From the IMG/VR virus record IMGVR_UViG_3300046534_002092, positions 1 through 23,846 of that record: a stretch of DNA of 23,846 bases, one strand, 5' to 3'. Of the stretch, positions 7,390 through 18,029 are shown one piece after another. The translations under genes were made by a program, and so were the position numbers. A model generated the notes under the pieces. It worked only from the letters and a program-made list of their open reading frames with translations, did no database searches and was not told where the DNA came from. Numbering within the stretch: position 1 is the first letter of the stretch; each line of letters begins with the position of its first letter. The DNA comes from a virus.

Positions 7390-7518
7390 ATAGACCTAGT
7401 GTATGTGCGGCTACTGAATTACAAATGGGGCGCCAACCCAACCGATGCACCGTGGATGACATAGCCGCCGTTGCTGGGCAGCCGTTACGCGCTGGGCAAA
7501 CGTCGTTTCAGCGCGAAT
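7390..7518 (-). promoter_or_regulatory. Probable late promoter region with GCTGGGCA direct repeats
   Basis: A gene-free segment between two terminators. On the minus strand a TTGTAA followed 15 nt later by TACACT (about 7399-7425) is a weak promoter match. GCTGGGCA occurs twice, at 7473-7480 and 7491-7498, exactly 18 bp apart, within a wider imperfect repeat (CCGTT before each). In lambda the Q-binding site lies at the late promoter, so these repeats are candidate Q-like or activator sites. Promoter strength and function are guesses. Confidence 0.35.
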
Positions 7519-7550
7519 AAAAAAACCCCGCAACACTTTCGTGAGCGGGG
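7519..7550 (-). terminator. Intrinsic terminator after the Q-like gene
   Basis: On the minus strand CCCCGC and GCGGGG enclose an inner CAC-GAAA-GTG hairpin with a GNRA tetraloop, followed by seven T residues (7525-7519). It is a strong end for the leftward early transcript. The stretch 7551-7730 upstream is AT-rich, has a small GGTTGG/CCAACC inverted repeat at 7560-7579 and no gene. Confidence 0.85.
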
Positions 7551-7730
7551 CTGAGGGGAGGTTGGGTGCGACTCCAACCAACTGACAGATTTATACAACA
7601 ATACACGCTTTTTACACCCACACCCCTAATGGCGTAAACCCCCTATTTTCGCCTTTTGTGTCGGTGTTGCGTGGGTGCGTTGTTGAAGTGAAAAAGAGCA
7701 AAAATAAAACACAAAATAAATTCTAATTAT

Positions 7731-8159
7731 TCACCCAGCCCGCTTTAACCAAGGCAGCTCAATAAACAGGTTTGGCTCAATGGCGCGATGCAATTGATCG
7801 ATCTTGCTGTAGTACGTCGCCTCAGATCGCCAGCCCATGCGCTTCATTTGCCGCGCCACACTGGGCATGGGATTCGTCAAATAACGGATGCGCGCCAATT
7901 TCACTAACTCCACGCCCGTTTTCCCCAAGCCGCCCAGCTCCACCGCTTGGCGCATAGCCACAAGGGCAGACTCCACCGCTTCGCCAACCACGCCTAGCTC
8001 CCCAGTATACAAAGCCTTACCGCCAGACTCAGTGGTACCCACAATCATCACGCCCTTATTCGCAATCGCAGAGCCCAAAGGGCAGCGTAACGACGATGAA
8101 CCATGCATTCGGTACTCATCACCCCAGGCAATCAAAGCCAATTCAATCGCATCAATCAC
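7731..8159 (-). CDS. Q-like late antiterminator
   Basis: 142 residues from a GTG at 8159, chosen because AAGGGG lies 6 nt upstream. Longer TTG starts at 8183 and 8201 run into the repeat array. The pattern is that of phage Q proteins: an opening helix with LIAWGDEYRMHGSSSL, and a C-terminal helix-turn-helix with MPSVARQMKRMGWRSEATYYSKIDQLHRAI. It should bind DNA near the late promoter and let RNA polymerase pass the terminator at 7365-7389. Its location at the end of the early operon and just before the late genes is that of lambda Q. Sequence identity to any given Q is not claimed. Confidence 0.72.
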   Translation of the reverse strand: MIDAIELALIAWGDEYRMHGSSSLRCPLGSAIANKGVMIVGTTESGGKALYTGELGVVGEAVESALVAMRQAVELGGLGKTGVELVKLARIRYLTNPMPSVARQMKRMGWRSEATYYSKIDQLHRAIEPNLFIELPWLKRAG

Positions 8160-8183
8160 TGTTATTCCCCTTAAATCAACCAA

Positions 8184-8468
8184 CCCTAGTAAAATCGCCA
8201 AACCCTAGTAACAACCCTAGTAAATTATTTTTCTTATATTTCATGTATTTATATAACATTTACTAGGGTTACTAGGGTTGCTAGGGTTTTTGGAGCCTCG
8301 CGTAGAGAAAAAAACACCTCGTTTTTCGTTATATTTACGCGCGTGCGCGCGCGTTTAACCCTAGCAACCCTAGTAAATCGAAAAAACGCCCCGCAAAGCC
8401 GCGTGGTTGCTGCACCTCATTTACTAGGGTTGTAAAAACCAACCCTAGCACTACCCTAGCAACCCTAG
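8184..8468. repeat. Array of twelve CCCTAG-core repeats: candidate replication origin iterons
   Basis: CCCTAG occurs at 8184, 8203, 8215, 8359, 8368, 8443, 8454 and 8463, and its complement CTAGGG at 8263, 8272, 8281 and 8424. The fuller unit is about TT(A/G)CTAGGGTT. Several copies are head to tail at a 9-bp step (8263-8286, 8359-8373). A very AT-rich stretch (8221-8262) separates the first two oppositely oriented groups. The array lies right after the helicase gene. Iterons plus an AT-rich unwinding segment beside a P4-alpha-like primase/helicase suggest an origin. A role in controlling the Q-like gene is the alternative. Confidence 0.7.
8337..8354. other. 18-bp perfect alternating purine/pyrimidine run
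   Basis: ACGCGCGTGCGCGCGCGT alternates strictly between purine and pyrimidine, is dominated by CG steps, and can form Z-DNA or cruciform-like structures. It lies inside the repeat array between the CTAGGG triplet at 8263-8286 and the CCCTAG pair at 8359-8373. Confidence 0.75.
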
Positions 8469-10225: not shown

Positions 10226-11265
10226 GCTGCCACCTGTTCAGGCACCTGCGGAAACACCGCAACCAGCCCTAATTTATTCGCCAGCTCGGTTGCTTTTGTA
10301 CGCCCGGGGTTACCCTTACTGCGTGGGTCATCATCACCAGCAATAATAAATTTTGTTTTTGGGTAACGCTCCCACAATTCTTTAACAACAGTATCCATAT
10401 TATAAATATCCACCGTCATCACCGTGGGCCACTCGGTGGCTAAATACACACTGGCCGCCGTAGCATAACCCTCGGCCACCGCAACCACGTCAGCATCAGC
10501 TACCGAGCCTATGCAATGCATGCAGCCGTGCTTGCGGGAATACTTAGGGAACAGCTTGGTGCCATTGGGGGCAATTGACTGAAACGACCACACCACCCCA
10601 TCTATATCCACCAGCGGCACCAAAAACGTACCGGGCTTTAGCATCATAAAACTGTGGTGATCTGGCCTTGGCTTTGGCAAGTCATCAAAAAAGCGCTTAA
10701 TGTCATCACCGGCCCACAAATCGCAGCGTTGCAGCTTGTCATCTACACTCAACACCACCGCGTGCTTAATAAACCGCACACCAAAGGCGCCAACCTGCTT
10801 GCGGTCTAAATACTCACTTTTACCGCGAGCAACCGTGAACTCTGCTAATAGCCGCCGGGTGGCTAACTGCACCTGTTCTTGCATCACCAACAAACGCGCC
10901 TCGTCGGCCTCTACCTCGGCTTGGCGCTGTTTGCGGCGGGCTTCGTTTTCGGCTTTGCGCTGGCGCTTTTCCTCGTCGGTAAGTTCCTTTTTTTCTGGGC
11001 GCCAGCCGCCCTCTTTGGCTAAATGAATAACCGTACCAATCGACACACCACGGCCCTTACAACTTTTCCAGACTGCCAGCGCCGCTGATCGATCATAAGT
11101 ACTGCCGCCAGCACTCCAATTGTCCCAGTCAGAAAACGCGTTTTCACCGAATTCACACTTAACGCCCATTGTTACCTTTACCCATGTATCGCGGTCTAGG
11201 TCTGGGCTTATGTGCGCTAAGAGATTGGCTAAATCGTCTATATTTAAATCGGGATAGTCGGGCAT
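10222..11265 (-). CDS. Toprim-domain phage primase with PriCT-2 domain
   Basis: 347 residues. Residues about 5-80 match the PriCT-2 primase C-terminal-type domain (DLDRDTWVKVTMGVK, FSDWDNWS, VWKSCKG, GTVIHLAKEGGW). A charged coiled linker (about 90-140, KKELTDEEKRQRKAENEARRK) follows. The Toprim fold comes at about 230-330, with the catalytic glutamate in VAEGYATAASVY and the acidic DDD cluster in FIIAGDDDP. It should make RNA primers for phage replication together with the helicase encoded by the next gene. No CHC2 zinc finger is seen. The ATG overlaps the stop of the DksA-like gene (TAATG). Confidence 0.88.
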   Translation of the reverse strand: MPDYPDLNIDDLANLLAHISPDLDRDTWVKVTMGVKCEFGENAFSDWDNWSAGGSTYDRSAALAVWKSCKGRGVSIGTVIHLAKEGGWRPEKKELTDEEKRQRKAENEARRKQRQAEVEADEARLLVMQEQVQLATRRLLAEFTVARGKSEYLDRKQVGAFGVRFIKHAVVLSVDDKLQRCDLWAGDDIKRFFDDLPKPRPDHHSFMMLKPGTFLVPLVDIDGVVWSFQSIAPNGTKLFPKYSRKHGCMHCIGSVADADVVAVAEGYATAASVYLATEWPTVMTVDIYNMDTVVKELWERYPKTKFIIAGDDDPRSKGNPGRTKATELANKLGLVAVFPQVPEQVAA

Positions 11266-11480
11266 TATCGAACACCCCGCCGCTCAACAATGCTTTGGCA
11301 ATACACACAACACTCAACACCAGGCAACAATGCCCGCCGTGCCTTCGGGATCTCGTCGCCGCACTCTAAACAATGCGGATGATCAACCGAGGGGCGCGCA
11401 GCTTTACGTTTTGCCTCTGCTAGGGCCAAATCCAGCGCGCGCTGGCTTTCTTCTGCAGCAAAATCGCATAAATCAGCCAT
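11265..11480 (-). CDS. DksA/TraR-family C4 zinc-finger protein
   Basis: 71 residues from the ATG at 11480, with GGAGG 6 nt upstream. An in-frame earlier start at 11516 lacks a site. The four cysteines C37, C40, C58 and C61 form the TraR/DksA zinc finger (HCLECGDEIPKARR and CCVYC). The N-terminal helix is short, as in TraR and phage homologues. Members bind the RNA polymerase secondary channel and alter promoter choice, mimicking DksA with ppGpp. Here it may tune host or phage transcription. It overlaps the CP76 gene by 8 nt. Confidence 0.85.
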   Translation of the reverse strand: MADLCDFAAEESQRALDLALAEAKRKAARPSVDHPHCLECGDEIPKARRALLPGVECCVYCQSIVERRGVR

Positions 11481-11958
11481 GGTTCGCCTCCGCAGATTGC
11501 CTAGCACCGGCAACAATACTCAGCACCTTGCTAATGACCTCATAACCATAATGCTCAAGCTCGTTTACCTCAGCCGTTTCCCAGCGCTGATCAGCCACAC
11601 CGCTGTTTAGGCTTTCAACAAACTCACCCGCCGCGCTCAACACCTCGCCCAATGCCTTTAGCGCATCACTCGTGCCCGGTACCGGCGTTACATCAAACAA
11701 CACCTTGCCACGCGCGCGGGCATACGCCTCGTCAATGCGCGGGTCATCAGTAATGCTCACCAGCGTTTCAAATTCCGGCAGCGTTAAATGGTGAGTGGTA
11801 TTGGCAATACTGAGTTTCTTCTGAAGGGTGTCGTAATTGGTGGCCATAATCGCAGCCAAGGCCGTTAAACCGCCCCGGTAATCACGGCTGGCGCAGTACA
11901 AGGCTTGGTGTAAATCCAGCACAGGGCCGGCGTCTGGCAGTAAATGATTTCGACTCAT
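11473..11958 (-). CDS. CP76/CII-family phage regulatory protein
   Basis: 161 residues. Residues 15-85 (LHQALYCASRDYRGGLTALAAIMATNYDTLQKKLS, then HHLTLPEFETLVSITDDPRI) follow the pattern of PF06892 phage regulatory protein CII (CP76), a DNA-binding family found after cro in many prophages. The C-terminal 60 residues are helical and not recognised. The place after the cro-like gene is that of lambda cII, so it probably takes part in the lysis-lysogeny choice. Binding sites are not identified. Start at 11958 is an ATG; GAGGGAA lies upstream. Confidence 0.8.
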   Translation of the reverse strand: MSRNHLLPDAGPVLDLHQALYCASRDYRGGLTALAAIMATNYDTLQKKLSIANTTHHLTLPEFETLVSITDDPRIDEAYARARGKVLFDVTPVPGTSDALKALGEVLSAAGEFVESLNSGVADQRWETAEVNELEHYGYEVISKVLSIVAGARQSAEANHG

Positions 11959-12019
11959 GGCGAAAATTCCCTCATATCGCCGTAGCCAAGACGCGGTGAA
12001 TCCGCTTATTCTTGAACTG

Positions 12020-12068
12020 CGGCATGGTTGTGTCGCACGCCTTGGGGTGGAATATCTGTGGTGGGTGG
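12020..12068 (-). promoter_or_regulatory. nutR-position copy of the two-part leader element
   Basis: Read on the minus strand, CCACCCACCAC (12068-12058) is followed 22 nt later by CGACACAACCATGCCG (12035-12020). The same two boxes in the same orientation, 21 nt apart, lie in the rightward leader (13963-14010). A GTGGT/ACCAC stem can form around the first box. It sits between the cro-like and CII-like genes, the site of lambda nutR. The rest of the gap 11959-12096 shows only a weak GCGG/CCGC hairpin and a possible 17-33 residue ORF. Confidence 0.55.
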
Positions 12069-12096
12069 ACCACTCCGAGGCACTTATTTGGTTTTA

Positions 12097-12318
12097 TTAG
12101 GCCGCTTCATTTGGCTTGAACACTTCAGGACATAAAGCATGCGCAGGTATTTGGCCCTTAATAATAGACTCAACATCCTGCGCCACCTCTGCAGGAATAC
12201 CCCTGCTTTTCCAGTTATTAACACGCTGCGCAGTGAAATCAGCCCCCAACTTCTCAGCCAAAGCTGTAGGGCCTCCAGCCAATTTAATAGCCTTGGCTGC
12301 AGCTACTAACTTTTCCAT
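12097..12318 (-). CDS. Cro/YdaS-like DNA-binding protein
   Basis: 73 residues from the ATG at 12318, with GGAG 6 nt upstream. An earlier TTG at 12330 is less likely. The segment GGPTALAEKL, then RVNNWKSRGIPAEVAQDVE, is a helix-turn-helix of the YdaS/Cro type. It shares the VNNWK-RG-P recognition-helix pattern with the divergent repressor (QQVNNWKKRGVP). It is the first gene of the leftward early operon and should compete with the repressor for the operators at 12351-12405, as Cro does in lambda. Confidence 0.85.
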   Translation of the reverse strand: MEKLVAAAKAIKLAGGPTALAEKLGADFTAQRVNNWKSRGIPAEVAQDVESIIKGQIPAHALCPEVFKPNEAA

Positions 12319-12348
12319 GACAAACTCCAATAAACATGACCTAACAAC

Positions 12349-12378
12349 AGTATAAACATGAGGTTTATATTTTTACAA
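12349..12378 (-). promoter_or_regulatory. Leftward early promoter (PR equivalent)
   Basis: On the minus strand TTGTAA (12378-12373) and TATACT (12354-12349) are separated by 18 nt, followed by the cro-like gene about 30 nt downstream. The operator at 12351-12369 lies over the spacer and -10, so a bound repressor would block polymerase. Confidence 0.6.
12351..12369. promoter_or_regulatory. Operator O1 (TATAAAC-N5-GTTTATA)
   Basis: A perfect 7-bp inverted repeat with a 5-bp spacer, centred in the leftward early promoter. The same half-site recurs at 12391-12405, 13911-13927 and 13932-13952. Single half-sites ATAAAC at 12330-12335 and GTTTAT at 12384-12389 flank it. Confidence 0.75.
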
Positions 12379-12405
12379 GCGATGTTTATTTAAACTTAAT
12401 GTTTA
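12372..12405 (+). promoter_or_regulatory. Repressor-gene promoter with operator O2 over the start region
   Basis: TTTACA at 12372-12377 and CTTAAT at 12395-12400 form a weak rightward promoter with 17-nt spacing. Operator O2 (TAAAC-TTAAT-GTTTA, 12391-12405) covers its -10 and the first possible start codon. Transcription would begin about 12407, giving a leaderless or near-leaderless repressor mRNA and autoregulation by O2. Confidence 0.4.
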
Positions 12406-12407
12406 TG

Positions 12408-13118
12408 ATGGATAAAAAACAGATACTGACTGCCGACCAAATAGCCGCTGGCAAAGCATTCACCGCAGCGCTCAAATCATCCGCACTCAAGCCGGCGGAT
12501 ATCGCTCGCATGGTTAAAGGTACTCCGCAGCAAGTAAACAACTGGAAAAAACGAGGTGTTCCCGGCAAATTTGCAAAAGCAATTGCGTTAAGGTTGCTAA
12601 CATATCCTGAAATAATCGCTCCAGAATACTTACCCGAAACTGTAAACGAAGATCCTTCAACATACGAAATCGAACCCCTGTCCCTGAATGGCTATTCGTT
12701 AATTAAAAATTATGATGCTTACGTTTCTGCAGGAAACGGCACCCACAACGAAGCGGTGGAAGTCAAAGGCGGCCTTGCTTTCCGCAATGACTGGCTCAAA
12801 AAACTCGGACGCAAAGCTGAAGACTTATGCGTTATCCACTGCAGCGGCGAAAGTATGGAGCCAACCATCTATCATGCCGATGCGCTTTTAATCGACCAAT
12901 CCAGTACCACTCCAACAAATGGCCGAATCTTCGCTATCAAGCGCAATGACGGCACTGAAAGTGTGAAGCGTCTCATACAGCGTGCCACTACCGGATCTTG
13001 GATAGTACGCAGTGACCACCCAGACAAAAATCGTTATCCTGACGAAGAAGCAAGCGAAACAATGATGCAAGACCTACCCATTATTGGCCGAGTTGTATGG
13101 CGAGGCGGCGCCCTATAA
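12408..13118 (+). CDS. S24-family (CI/LexA-like) prophage repressor
   Basis: 236 residues from the ATG at 12408; ATGs at 12399 and 12405 are also in frame, and none has a ribosome site. The N-terminal helix-turn-helix (about residues 18-55, DIARMVKGTPQQVNNWKKRG) binds operators. The C-terminal half is a self-cleaving S24 peptidase: cleavage site Ala-Gly in YVSAGNG (about 108-109), catalytic Ser149 in HCSGESMEPTI and Lys187 in TESVKRLI, a spacing like LexA and CI. DNA damage through RecA should trigger cleavage and induction. The gene lies between the two divergent early promoters and is followed by the zinc-ribbon gene at 30 nt. Confidence 0.93.
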   Translation: MDKKQILTADQIAAGKAFTAALKSSALKPADIARMVKGTPQQVNNWKKRGVPGKFAKAIALRLLTYPEIIAPEYLPETVNEDPSTYEIEPLSLNGYSLIKNYDAYVSAGNGTHNEAVEVKGGLAFRNDWLKKLGRKAEDLCVIHCSGESMEPTIYHADALLIDQSSTTPTNGRIFAIKRNDGTESVKRLIQRATTGSWIVRSDHPDKNRYPDEEASETMMQDLPIIGRVVWRGGAL

Positions 13119-13148
13119 CGGCCGAGAAAAACTACACACGGAACTTTT

Positions 13149-13832
13149 ATGGCACTCATAAAATGCAAGGAATGCAACAAAGAAATCTCGACTTCGGCAG
13201 TTGCCTGCCCCCACTGCGGAGCAACACCACCAAAAGAATCTTCTAAACTAGCCATTGCATTTATCTTCGTGATTGTGGCTATTATAGGAGCCGCGCTCTC
13301 AACAAATTACCAAGAACACAACAAAAAAATTGTCGCAACAAAAATAAAATATACACCAACACCCGCTTCGAGCACATTAATGCCATCTCAAAAATGGCAC
13401 TTCTACATCGATGAAAACCCAGTAGATGACAGCACCACAAGCACACTTTTCCTTAGCCCAGACTCAGGAAAAAGTAAGTGGGGAAAATCATTCACCATGG
13501 TAATGAGGTGTAAATCCAACACTACCGAGCTGTATGTAAAGTGGCACGATTACCTTGGTGACGACTCAAACGATGTATACCAAGACTGGAAATGGATCAC
13601 CGTCCGCATAGGAGAGAATAAAGCTAAGAAAGAGAAGTGGGATATTTCAACCGACAACACTGCCACATTTTCACGAACAGCTATCGCCACACTACGAGAA
13701 ATTGCGAAAGCGGACAAACTACTATTCTCAACCATCCCTTACAACGAAAACGCCTCAACCGCTATTTACGACACCAAGGGATTGAGCGAGGGCATTAAAA
13801 AAATAGCTGATGCTTGTCACTGGAAATTGTAA
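13149..13832 (+). CDS. Zinc-ribbon membrane protein with VasI-like C-terminal domain
   Basis: 227 residues. The N-terminus has a zinc ribbon (C6, C9, C20, C23 in KCKECNKEIS and ACPHCGAT), then one membrane segment (about 34-52, LAIAFIFVIVAIIGAAL). The rest (80-227) is a soluble domain whose ending LLFSTIPYNENAST, then TKGLSEGIKKIADACHW, resembles the VasI/DUF family known beside type VI secretion genes. It follows the repressor at 30 nt and ends at a terminator, so it should be made in the lysogen. Such genes often alter the host, for example by superinfection exclusion. That role is inferred from position only. Confidence 0.7.
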   Translation: MALIKCKECNKEISTSAVACPHCGATPPKESSKLAIAFIFVIVAIIGAALSTNYQEHNKKIVATKIKYTPTPASSTLMPSQKWHFYIDENPVDDSTTSTLFLSPDSGKSKWGKSFTMVMRCKSNTTELYVKWHDYLGDDSNDVYQDWKWITVRIGENKAKKEKWDISTDNTATFSRTAIATLREIAKADKLLFSTIPYNENASTAIYDTKGLSEGIKKIADACHWKL

Positions 13833-13855
13833 AAGCTGGCCATATCACCTAAAGC

Positions 13856-13881
13856 AACCGCCTTGTGAGGCGGTTTTTTTT
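13856..13881 (+). terminator. Intrinsic terminator of the immunity operon
   Basis: Arms AACCGCCT and AGGCGGTT enclose a TGTG loop, followed by a run of T residues to 13881. It ends the repressor and zinc-ribbon transcript and separates it from the rightward early promoter. Confidence 0.92.
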
Positions 13882-13910
13882 GGTCTAAAAACTACAAACA
13901 ATAAAAAAAC

Positions 13911-13952
13911 ATAAACTTCATGTTGACCTAAATATAAACTCCATGTTTATAT
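13911..13952 (+). promoter_or_regulatory. Rightward early promoter (PL equivalent) with operators O3 and O4
   Basis: TTGACC (13923-13928) and TTTATA (13946-13951) are 17 nt apart and would start RNA near 13958. O4 (ATATAAAC-TCCAT-GTTTATAT, 13932-13952) is a perfect 8-bp inverted repeat covering spacer and -10. O3 (ATAAAC-TTCAT-GTTGAC, 13911-13927) is imperfect and covers the -35. The operators share their arms and 5-bp spacer with O1 and O2, so the same repressor should control both early operons. Confidence 0.75.
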
Positions 13953-13955
13953 TGC

Positions 13956-14010
13956 GTTGAACCCACCCACCACACAGGGTCAACACAATGCAACCGACAC
14001 AACCATGCCG
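13956..14010 (+). promoter_or_regulatory. nutL-position copy of the two-part leader element
   Basis: Box 1 CCACCCACCAC is at 13963-13973 and box 2 CGACACAACCATGCCG at 13995-14010, 21 nt later. Box 1 is in the loop of a hairpin with arms GTTGA-CCC (13956-13964, one bulged A) and GGGTCAAC (13977-13984). The element begins at the predicted 5' end of the rightward early RNA, and box 2 overlaps the first codons of the first gene. Confidence 0.55.
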
Positions 14011-14179
14011 TATTTATTTACACCCTACCGCCGCTAGCTGCCCCGAAAAGATCAAAGCGGTTATTGCCCGCACGGGCTTAGCCATTGTTATTGGCGGTAA
14101 CAGCCGCGCTGCTGCACTGAAACCCCAATCCGTACCAACCGCACAAGGCGACTTTGCGCCTTGGGACGGTGCCGCATGA
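13988..14179 (+). CDS. Small hypothetical protein, first gene of the rightward early operon
   Basis: 63 residues, not recognised. The protein has a hydrophobic middle (IKAVIARTGLAIVIGGNSRAAAL) but no clear membrane segment or domain. The ATG follows AGGGT at a reasonable distance. The codons for residues 3-8 coincide with box 2 of the repeated leader element, so part of this reading frame may be constrained by RNA or DNA function. It ends in an ATGA overlap with the next gene, which supports it as a real gene. The place of lambda N is at this point, but the protein is not Arg-rich and I do not call it N. Confidence 0.6.
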   Translation: MQPTQPCRIYLHPTAASCPEKIKAVIARTGLAIVIGGNSRAAALKPQSVPTAQGDFAPWDGAA

Positions 14180-15443: not shown

Positions 15444-15721
15444 CCCTGCACACACCAGAAACCTTACGCCTGCAAGCCAAGCTCGACCGCTTAGCACTTG
15501 AGCAATTACGCGCTGAATGCGCACGGTTAAACGATGAGTTAGAAGCAACCCAGCGTGAGCTGTACCACGCTCAGGAAAGCGCCGATTTTTGGCAAAACTA
15601 CGCAGAGGAACTGCGTCAGAGCTTAGGCGACAGCGAAGCAAACCACCTCTGTGTAGGCCTTACCAGGGCCGGCGAAATGCTGGTCATTGAAAAGCCCGCC
15701 CAAGCGAGAGCAAACCAATGA
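15440..15721 (+). CDS. Small coiled-coil phage protein
   Basis: 93 residues with a long charged helix (about 7-65) showing heptad-like Leu, Ala and Glu spacing (KLDRLALEQLRAECARLNDE). It is not assigned to a family. It overlaps the PrtN-like gene downstream by 4 nt. Confidence 0.55.
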   Translation: MTLHTPETLRLQAKLDRLALEQLRAECARLNDELEATQRELYHAQESADFWQNYAEELRQSLGDSEANHLCVGLTRAGEMLVIEKPAQARANQ

Positions 15722-15960
15722 CCACATTAGAGCAGCTTCAGCGCCGCTACGACCGGCCCTACCTTACGCTTGAAGAAGTGCGGGCAGACCACCTGCCCCA
15801 CATCAAAACCGACAGACACCTGCTGCGCCTCATTAAAGATGGCGCGGTAGATCTGCACCCCTCGCGGCTGCACAACTCAAACCGCGCACCGCGAGTGGTT
15901 TACCTGCCCGACCTAGCGCGCTGGCTTAACCGCGCCATAGATCAGGCTTTAGCCGCTTAG
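15718..15960 (+). CDS. PrtN-like (pyocin-activator family) DNA-binding protein, first copy
   Basis: 80 residues. The order YLTLEEVRADHLPHIKTDRHLLRLIKDGAVDL then RAPRVVYLPDLARWLNRAI matches the PF11112 pyocin activator PrtN fold (small winged helix), though with a diverged middle lacking the usual RMGDSQKA motif. PrtN turns on pyocin genes by binding P-boxes in Pseudomonas; phage homologues likely activate prophage promoters or act as AlpA-like excision factors. A clearer relative is encoded at 19303-19581 in the same operon. Confidence 0.65.
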   Translation: MTTLEQLQRRYDRPYLTLEEVRADHLPHIKTDRHLLRLIKDGAVDLHPSRLHNSNRAPRVVYLPDLARWLNRAIDQALAA

Positions 15961-16683: not shown

Positions 16684-16701
16684 ATCCACCCACCACAGGA
16701 T
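16684..16701 (+). repeat. Leader hairpin with CACCCACCAC loop before the DUF2303 gene
   Basis: ATCC and GGAT enclose ACCCACCACA, with box 1 (CCACCCACCAC) at 16686-16696. Box 2 is not clear here, the nearest being TAGACCATGC over the start codon. It is one of the six leader sites sharing this loop. Confidence 0.5.
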
Positions 16702-17534: not shown

Positions 17535-17591
17535 ACCAAACCCCAGCGCCTCCACCCACCACGTACCGGCGCTGGGTAACTGACACAGCCA
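17535..17591 (+). repeat. 57-bp direct repeat, first copy (before mazG)
   Basis: It differs from the copy at 17973-18029 at one base. It contains a perfect 9-bp stem (CCCAGCGCC 17542-17550 and GGCGCTGGG 17568-17576) with box 1 CCACCCACCAC in the 17-nt loop, and box 2 TGACACAGCCAT right after. It lies 17 nt before the mazG start. Confidence 0.9.
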
Positions 17592-17972: not shown

Positions 17973-18029
17973 ACCAAACCCCAGCGCCTCCACCCACCAC
18001 GTAACGGCGCTGGGTAACTGACACAGCCA
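17973..18029 (+). repeat. 57-bp direct repeat, second copy (after mazG)
   Basis: Same stem-loop (CCCAGCGCC 17980-17988, GGCGCTGGG 18006-18014), box 1 at 17990-18000 and box 2 at 18020-18029. It lies between the mazG stop and the next gene, 438 bp downstream of the first copy. Confidence 0.9.

Follow-up and report, generated by a model that had tools for sequence, protein, structure and literature searches.

The locus analysed here raises the question of why one short, two-part sequence is carried by both early leaders of a lambda-like phage, and what it does there. The original prediction placed it at nutL- and nutR-like positions, noted that the leaders lack a lambda-type boxA, which is borne out in the leaders read from the window (the whole 23,846-base virus record), and proposed a new antitermination or RNA-protein element. 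The genes neighbouring the element were assigned by protein-family search. They include a Cro/YdaS-like regulator (12097-12318, minus strand), a CII-like regulator (PF06892; 11473-11958, minus strand), a CI-like protein with S24 peptidase (12399-13118), and the first gene of the leftward operon (13988-14179, plus strand), which encodes a 63-aa protein (phrog_13491) and is conserved together with the element. The place of lambda Q is taken by a phrog_4300 protein (7731-8201, minus strand), kept in 72-73 of 76 loci. The 63-aa protein, which holds the place of N, lacks arginine-rich character, and its AlphaFold model (4 rows) is of low confidence (pLDDT 61).

Several other genes of the region are of separate interest. 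A DksA/TraR-like zinc-finger protein (11265-11483, minus strand) directly follows cII, and a PrtN-family protein (15718-15960, plus strand) lies in the leftward operon; each is kept in 72 of the 76 loci, and both, which are transcription-related, could be partners. The interval from cI to the leftward promoter is occupied by what is apparently an accessory gene (13149-13832, plus strand), encoding a zinc-ribbon protein whose C-terminal part is VasI-like; a terminator (13856-13875) follows it.

Copies of the element in the window

The 16-mer CGACACAACCATGCCG is present exactly at 12035-12020 on the minus strand and at 13995-14010 on the plus strand, both copies being in sense orientation as predicted, and the window contains no further site at up to three mismatches. 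The arrangement of CCACCCACCAC followed by the 16-mer 21-22 nt on occurs exactly twice, with none in 100 shuffles (0 expected). The two leader copies are thus as originally described; three more plus-strand copies of CCACCCACCAC in the leftward operon had been missed, so that the element is not restricted to nutL- and nutR-like spots. All three lie just upstream of an ORF start, and two of them are accompanied by box 2, the second part of the element.

The right (R) copy comprises a hairpin with CCACCCACCAC in its loop between the cro-like and cII-like genes (12038-12082, minus strand; z -1.4 for the fold alone) and box 2 as CGACACAACC, within the extended 16-mer (12020-12035, minus strand), an exact match that is conserved in relatives. 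The left (L) copy comprises a hairpin at the probable 5' end of the leftward early RNA (13956-13984, plus strand), in which GTTGA/CCC is paired with GGG/TCAAC, and box 2 inside codons 3-8 of the first leftward gene (13995-14010, plus strand). The L hairpin matches left-leader model R1 with E 2.4e-5, the window being included in the training set, and a longer fragment gives a different minimum fold. Copy 3 (16685-16698, plus strand), upstream of a DUF2303 gene (16709), consists of box 1 on a weak 4-bp stem without box 2. Copy 4 (17542-17590, plus strand; z = -3.5) is a 9-bp GC hairpin with loop TCCACCCACCACGTACC, followed by GACACAGCC, before a MazG-like gene (17608), and copy 5 (17980-18028, plus strand; z = -3.7) has a 9-bp GC stem followed by GACACAGCC before ORF 18045. 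Copies 4 and 5, with box 1 near 17551 and 17989, share 98% identity over 57 nt and have perfect stems.

Conservation in related phages

The cI-cro region, used as query in a distant DNA search against phages, gave no match, and relatives were obtained by protein searches, which yielded CII relatives in nine Pseudomonas/Stutzerimonas phages, one Halomonas phage and one Paraburkholderia phage. A further 60 prophage-like loci, most from one bacterial family, were added by genome searches. The box pair is present in viral contigs whose CII is 72-96% identical (exact scans), and a pattern scan of genome contigs returned only loci taken as unrelated chance matches. The element is found in more than 60 related phages and prophages, including those of Pseudomonas and Halomonas; absence or lack of conservation in relatives, which would have counted against the original prediction, was looked for, and the element proved to be kept in close relatives and in the wider family. 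Its sites, which are in sense orientation, are the two leader positions and a place some 1-4 kb inside the leftward operon. When all leaders were read, nearly all loci had the same anatomy, namely a hairpin with a C-rich loop, a few nucleotides, and then GACACAGCAC or a variant; in Paraburkholderia IPK, no element was seen in the leader. With a model trained on 50 left leaders, 60 of 75 loci gave a single site at E < 0.01; the leaders used for training are bound to match.

Searches of Rfam gave no relevant match in the window in evalue mode (mir-3064 only, by chance), and in gathering mode on five relatives gave only RT-15 RNA (RF03018) in the leftward operon of Pseudomonas phage LPPA56 (L030 646-836, minus strand). 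The element is real and conserved, and it most likely acts at the RNA level.

The hairpin module

The first module can be described as a hairpin with a conserved C-rich loop (CCACCCACCAC in the window; CUCUCACC or CUUACCAC, and also CCCACCAC and UCCACCACAG, in the family). The check for covariation proposed with the original prediction, made on aligned leaders of relatives, shows that the stem covaries. In single-sequence folds, most left leaders form a hairpin capped by the loop motif, on stems that are unrelated (GUUGA-CCC, GUCGCG, CUCGUACC, GGACC, CUUCGUGCC and GCCUCAUACC), loop and box being conserved while stems vary. In the model-fitted alignment, 62% of cells pair, compared with at most 49% when the alignment is slid, and the covariation score is higher than in all 500 shuffles; the number of covarying pairs does not exceed that in all 500. 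In the right leaders two helices are supported, with two-sided changes at 7 of 13 pairs, and the R stem is maintained through such changes in L041, L043 and the family. The hairpin may serve as a dock for a protein, or as a means to keep the box open. Pairing of its loop with the late leader described below was considered and rejected, as hairpin loops have no excess complementarity to it (4.27, compared with 4.34 shuffled).

Other structures are present in these leaders. The right leaders of L034-L037 and L084-L117 contain a further conserved hairpin downstream of box 2, which ends in GGCUAC and has an AUA/GUA bulge, likewise conserved, preceding GGGC. A hairpin that ends at the AUG also holds the Shine-Dalgarno sequence of cII in its loop in many relatives (e.g. 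ACCGUAAAAGGAGUAUUUACGGUUAUG), the stem sequence varying with pairing kept; in the window, the predicted fold at the cII start (11958-12005, minus strand) is not significant.

The box module and gene starts

The second module, box 2, would be a short linear box (GACACAACC in the window, GACACAGCAC in the family), usually overlapping a translation start. Calls of hairpin plus box number 266 in the loci and 83 in reversed sequence, indicating that about one third of the raw calls are noise. The real groups of copies are those of the right leader, of the left leader and of a single gene located about 1-4 kb inside the leftward operon. In the family, box 2 also precedes other early genes without a hairpin: hairpin and box occur together at 36 of 41 starts of one gene family, other families having mostly the box alone. 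In the leftward operon, box 2 has a marked strand bias, with 200 sense and 14 antisense boxes, against 23 in reversed sequence; an ATG is found no more than 5 nt from 93 of the sense boxes, and 91 starts have a box within 4 nt of their ATG.

No gene starts at the R box, and in L087, L095-L097 and L099 the AUG at this site is lost with the box kept, for which reason the R box was rejected as the start of a leader peptide. In the L leader the AUG precedes the box. Since the R-leader AUG is not conserved and the L box follows its AUG, the box is more than a mere component of a ribosome-binding site.

A complementary segment in the late leader

Most loci have a strong terminator about 4.3-4.7 kb downstream of cII, immediately past the phrog_4300 gene and ahead of lysis-type genes. 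Within the conserved stretch at this point, a promoter-like block is followed by GCACGTGCTGTGC or TTGCTGTGTC and finally by the terminator; late promoters were assigned by inspection. In an alignment of 24 late leaders, GTGCTGTG is the longest block conserved in the interval from the -10-like block to the terminator; it is the reverse complement of box 2 and often lies in a hairpin loop. In the window, a putative short late-leader RNA would span 7518-7602 (minus strand), with a promoter-like TTTACG-N18-TAAAAA upstream and a terminator at 7551-7518. It contains the antisense segment TGGTTGGAGTCGCAC (7566-7580, minus strand), predicted to pair with the R site (12038-12026).

Two other features were observed here. 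A second strong terminator, AGCCCTCTTTGGAGGGCTTTTTT (7397-7371, minus strand), follows the first late-leader terminator in the window and precedes the next gene. In L091, L035, L092 and others, the interval between the phrog_4300 gene and the late promoter-like block contains, immediately ahead of the latter, repeats of the GTCGAAGT/GCGTCGAA type together with a common CCGTTCGTCGGG motif; these may be a candidate binding site of the phrog_4300 protein.

The complementarity extends to the individual phage. An exact complement of at least 8 nt in the phage's own late leader is found for 53 of 77 box-2 sites compared with 6 of 208 other early starts, and the mean longest exact complement is 8.0 at box-2 sites compared with 5.4 at other early starts. 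Across 23 non-redundant phages, the mean longest complement is 7.7 for the phage's own leader, 6.9 for swapped leaders, 5.3-5.6 for shuffled sequences and 5.4 for the same-sense comparison; the own-leader value was reached by 0 of 20,000 permutations in a test that ignores phylogeny. Matched variants of box and late leader come from several separate lineages, including L034 (GACACAGCAA/TTGCTGTGTC), L098 (GACACAGCACGT/ACGTGCTGTGTC), L133 (CACAGCCA/TGGCTGTG; CACAGCC with GGCTGTG), L118 (CAGCCAAT/ATTGGCTG), L123 (GCACAGCAC/GTGCTGTGC) and L087 (CACAGCACTG/CAGTGCTGTG), and wobble pairing can preserve the pair in L101. No late-leader match was found in L120 and L126, and none was seen in Halomonas L039 or the distant group L134-L143. 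Total duplex energy, which takes no account of intramolecular folding and mostly reflects GC-rich stems, was rejected as an uninformative measure of specificity, since most sites are mid-rank: box-2 sites are unremarkable among early 30-mers, the R site ranking 29 of 1968 in the window and sites elsewhere being mid-rank.

Pairing in the window is modest, with 7 contiguous bp at R and 6 at L, and weaker than in the family. The segment TGGTTGGAGTCGCAC can pair with GUGCGAC-A-CAACC of the R site (7 and 5 bp), and GTCAGTT of the late leader can pair with AACUGAC of copies 4 and 5. Both properties expected of a trans-acting antisense RNA, complementarity to target starts and covariation, are found in the family, and are modest in the window.

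The presence of an antisense partner that covaries with box 2 in the late leader points to RNA-RNA pairing, and we regard it as about an even call that the early mRNAs are controlled via base pairing of box 2 with this phage RNA. The proposal is built on direct observation of the sequences, the covarying stems, the sense orientation, and the complementarity and its covariation. The element would then be a two-module cis-acting RNA signal on early transcripts, and the antisense RNA a short transcript running from a putative late promoter to the terminator downstream of the phrog_4300 gene. Once late transcription is on, the leader RNA would pair with early messages in the cell, blocking translation of the box-bearing leftward genes, if the effect is repressive as we infer, and remodelling the cro-cII leader.

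Comparison with known systems

The element was compared with published systems (PMC9378689, PMC11893012, PMC3203893, PMC12699233, PMC12197685). In HK022, putL is located at PL, with putR about 270 nt downstream of the PR start, each put site consisting of two long stem-loops of about 70 nt that bind the RNA polymerase zinc-binding domain (PMC9378689). The present element likewise occurs as cis RNA copies in both early leaders at matching distances; unlike put, it has one hairpin and a linear box, and copies also precede internal genes. Assignment to the put fold was rejected, as the L leaders have a single hairpin and linear box in place of two adjacent stem-loops. It resembles the nut sites of lambda and of mEp021 (nutL/nutR1/nutR2; PMC11893012) in combining a hairpin and a linear box, in placement, and in a possible third site, but differs in its reversed order and in having neither boxA nor an A-rich boxB loop, and no arginine-rich motif (ARM) protein was seen. 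A lambda nut assignment was likewise rejected, since in the leaders read the hairpin comes first and the box follows, opposite to the order boxA to boxB.

The SAS/ESAS of cluster K mycobacteriophages is a short asymmetric box before many starts, about half of them with an upstream inverted repeat (PMC3203893). A box directly upstream of starts, sometimes with an inverted repeat, is a likeness confined to the internal leftward-operon copies. By contrast with ESAS, whose repeat arms have a consensus, here the loop is conserved and the stem varies, and unlike SAS/ESAS the element is also found in each of the early leaders and has a late-leader segment as antisense partner. It was not classed as SAS/ESAS, the box differing from the GGGATAGGAGCCC consensus and the arms varying in place of conserved 17-bp repeat arms.

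Lambda 6S RNA is a short terminated RNA, running from pR' to tR', between Q and the lysis genes. The putative late-leader RNA resembles it by placement, as a short terminated RNA between the Q-place gene and lysis genes, and differs in that its conserved part is complementary to early mRNA boxes. The c4 RNA of P1 and P7 is a short phage antisense RNA that pairs with phage mRNA; its Rfam covariance model has no match in the window or five relatives. The sar RNA of P22 pairs with ant mRNA (PMC12197685). The candidate described here would be of the same kind as c4 and sar, a short phage RNA pairing with phage mRNA, but a single candidate RNA from the late leader would have several targets on both early operons.

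Alternative explanations

Nut- or put-like processive antitermination, in which hairpin and box recruit a factor of phage or host origin to RNA polymerase, or themselves act on the enzyme, making it resistant to termination, with the mid-operon copy as a reloading site, would account well for the placement: one sense copy is found where the leftward RNA starts and another about 260-280 nt downstream of the inferred cro promoter, an arrangement matching putL and putR of HK022 (PMC9378689), the R copies often have tandem hairpins and keep the box even where the AUG is lost, and a third nut site within an early operon is known in mEp021-type phages (PMC11893012). We nevertheless consider it unlikely, given that boxA, boxB and the two-stem put fold are lacking, that no N-like protein is seen in the N place, where the 63-aa product is not arginine-rich, and that the early operons contain few strong intrinsic terminators before the one about 4.3-4.7 kb after cII. 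It also does not predict an antisense partner of box 2, and sits poorly with copies directly before internal genes and box 2 alone at gene starts. Of the original prediction, a conserved RNA-level element at nutL/putL- and nutR/putR-like positions stands, and antitermination as its specific function is not supported.

The gene-start copies could instead point to a SAS/ESAS-like translation element without an antisense partner, the box being a favoured spacer between Shine-Dalgarno sequence and AUG and the hairpin an extension recognised by a protein or by the ribosome. The 91 leftward starts with an adjoining box agree with this, as does the division between the one family with hairpins and the others with mostly the box alone, a split also seen in SAS with and without inverted repeats (PMC3203893). 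It too seems improbable: the R box has no gene start and a dispensable AUG, the L box lies after its AUG, and the matched late-leader variation is left unexplained. Still less probable are mRNA-stabilising or processing hairpins, with box likeness due to gene-start duplication and recombination between modules. A hairpin does lie at the 5' end of the leftward RNA, and the 98% identity of copies 4 and 5 indicates that local duplication occurs, but conservation of loop and box on changing stems counts against a pure stabiliser or duplication, neither of which would conserve the loop alone.

Implications

Even if pairing between box 2 and the late leader fails, a new conserved RNA element at nut/put positions, without an Rfam match, is established. 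A wider scheme is possible, if somewhat doubtful: throughout this lambda-like phage family, a late-leader antisense RNA would pair with a box on both early messages and at several early starts, early expression would thereby be shut off or retuned when the late promoter fires, and the hairpin would be a new RNA-protein docking site. If true, this would constitute a phage-wide, multi-target RNA regulon centred on a lambda-6S-like RNA, would provide an RNA route for the early-to-late switch in widespread temperate phages, and would suggest a role for the lambda-6S-like leader RNA.
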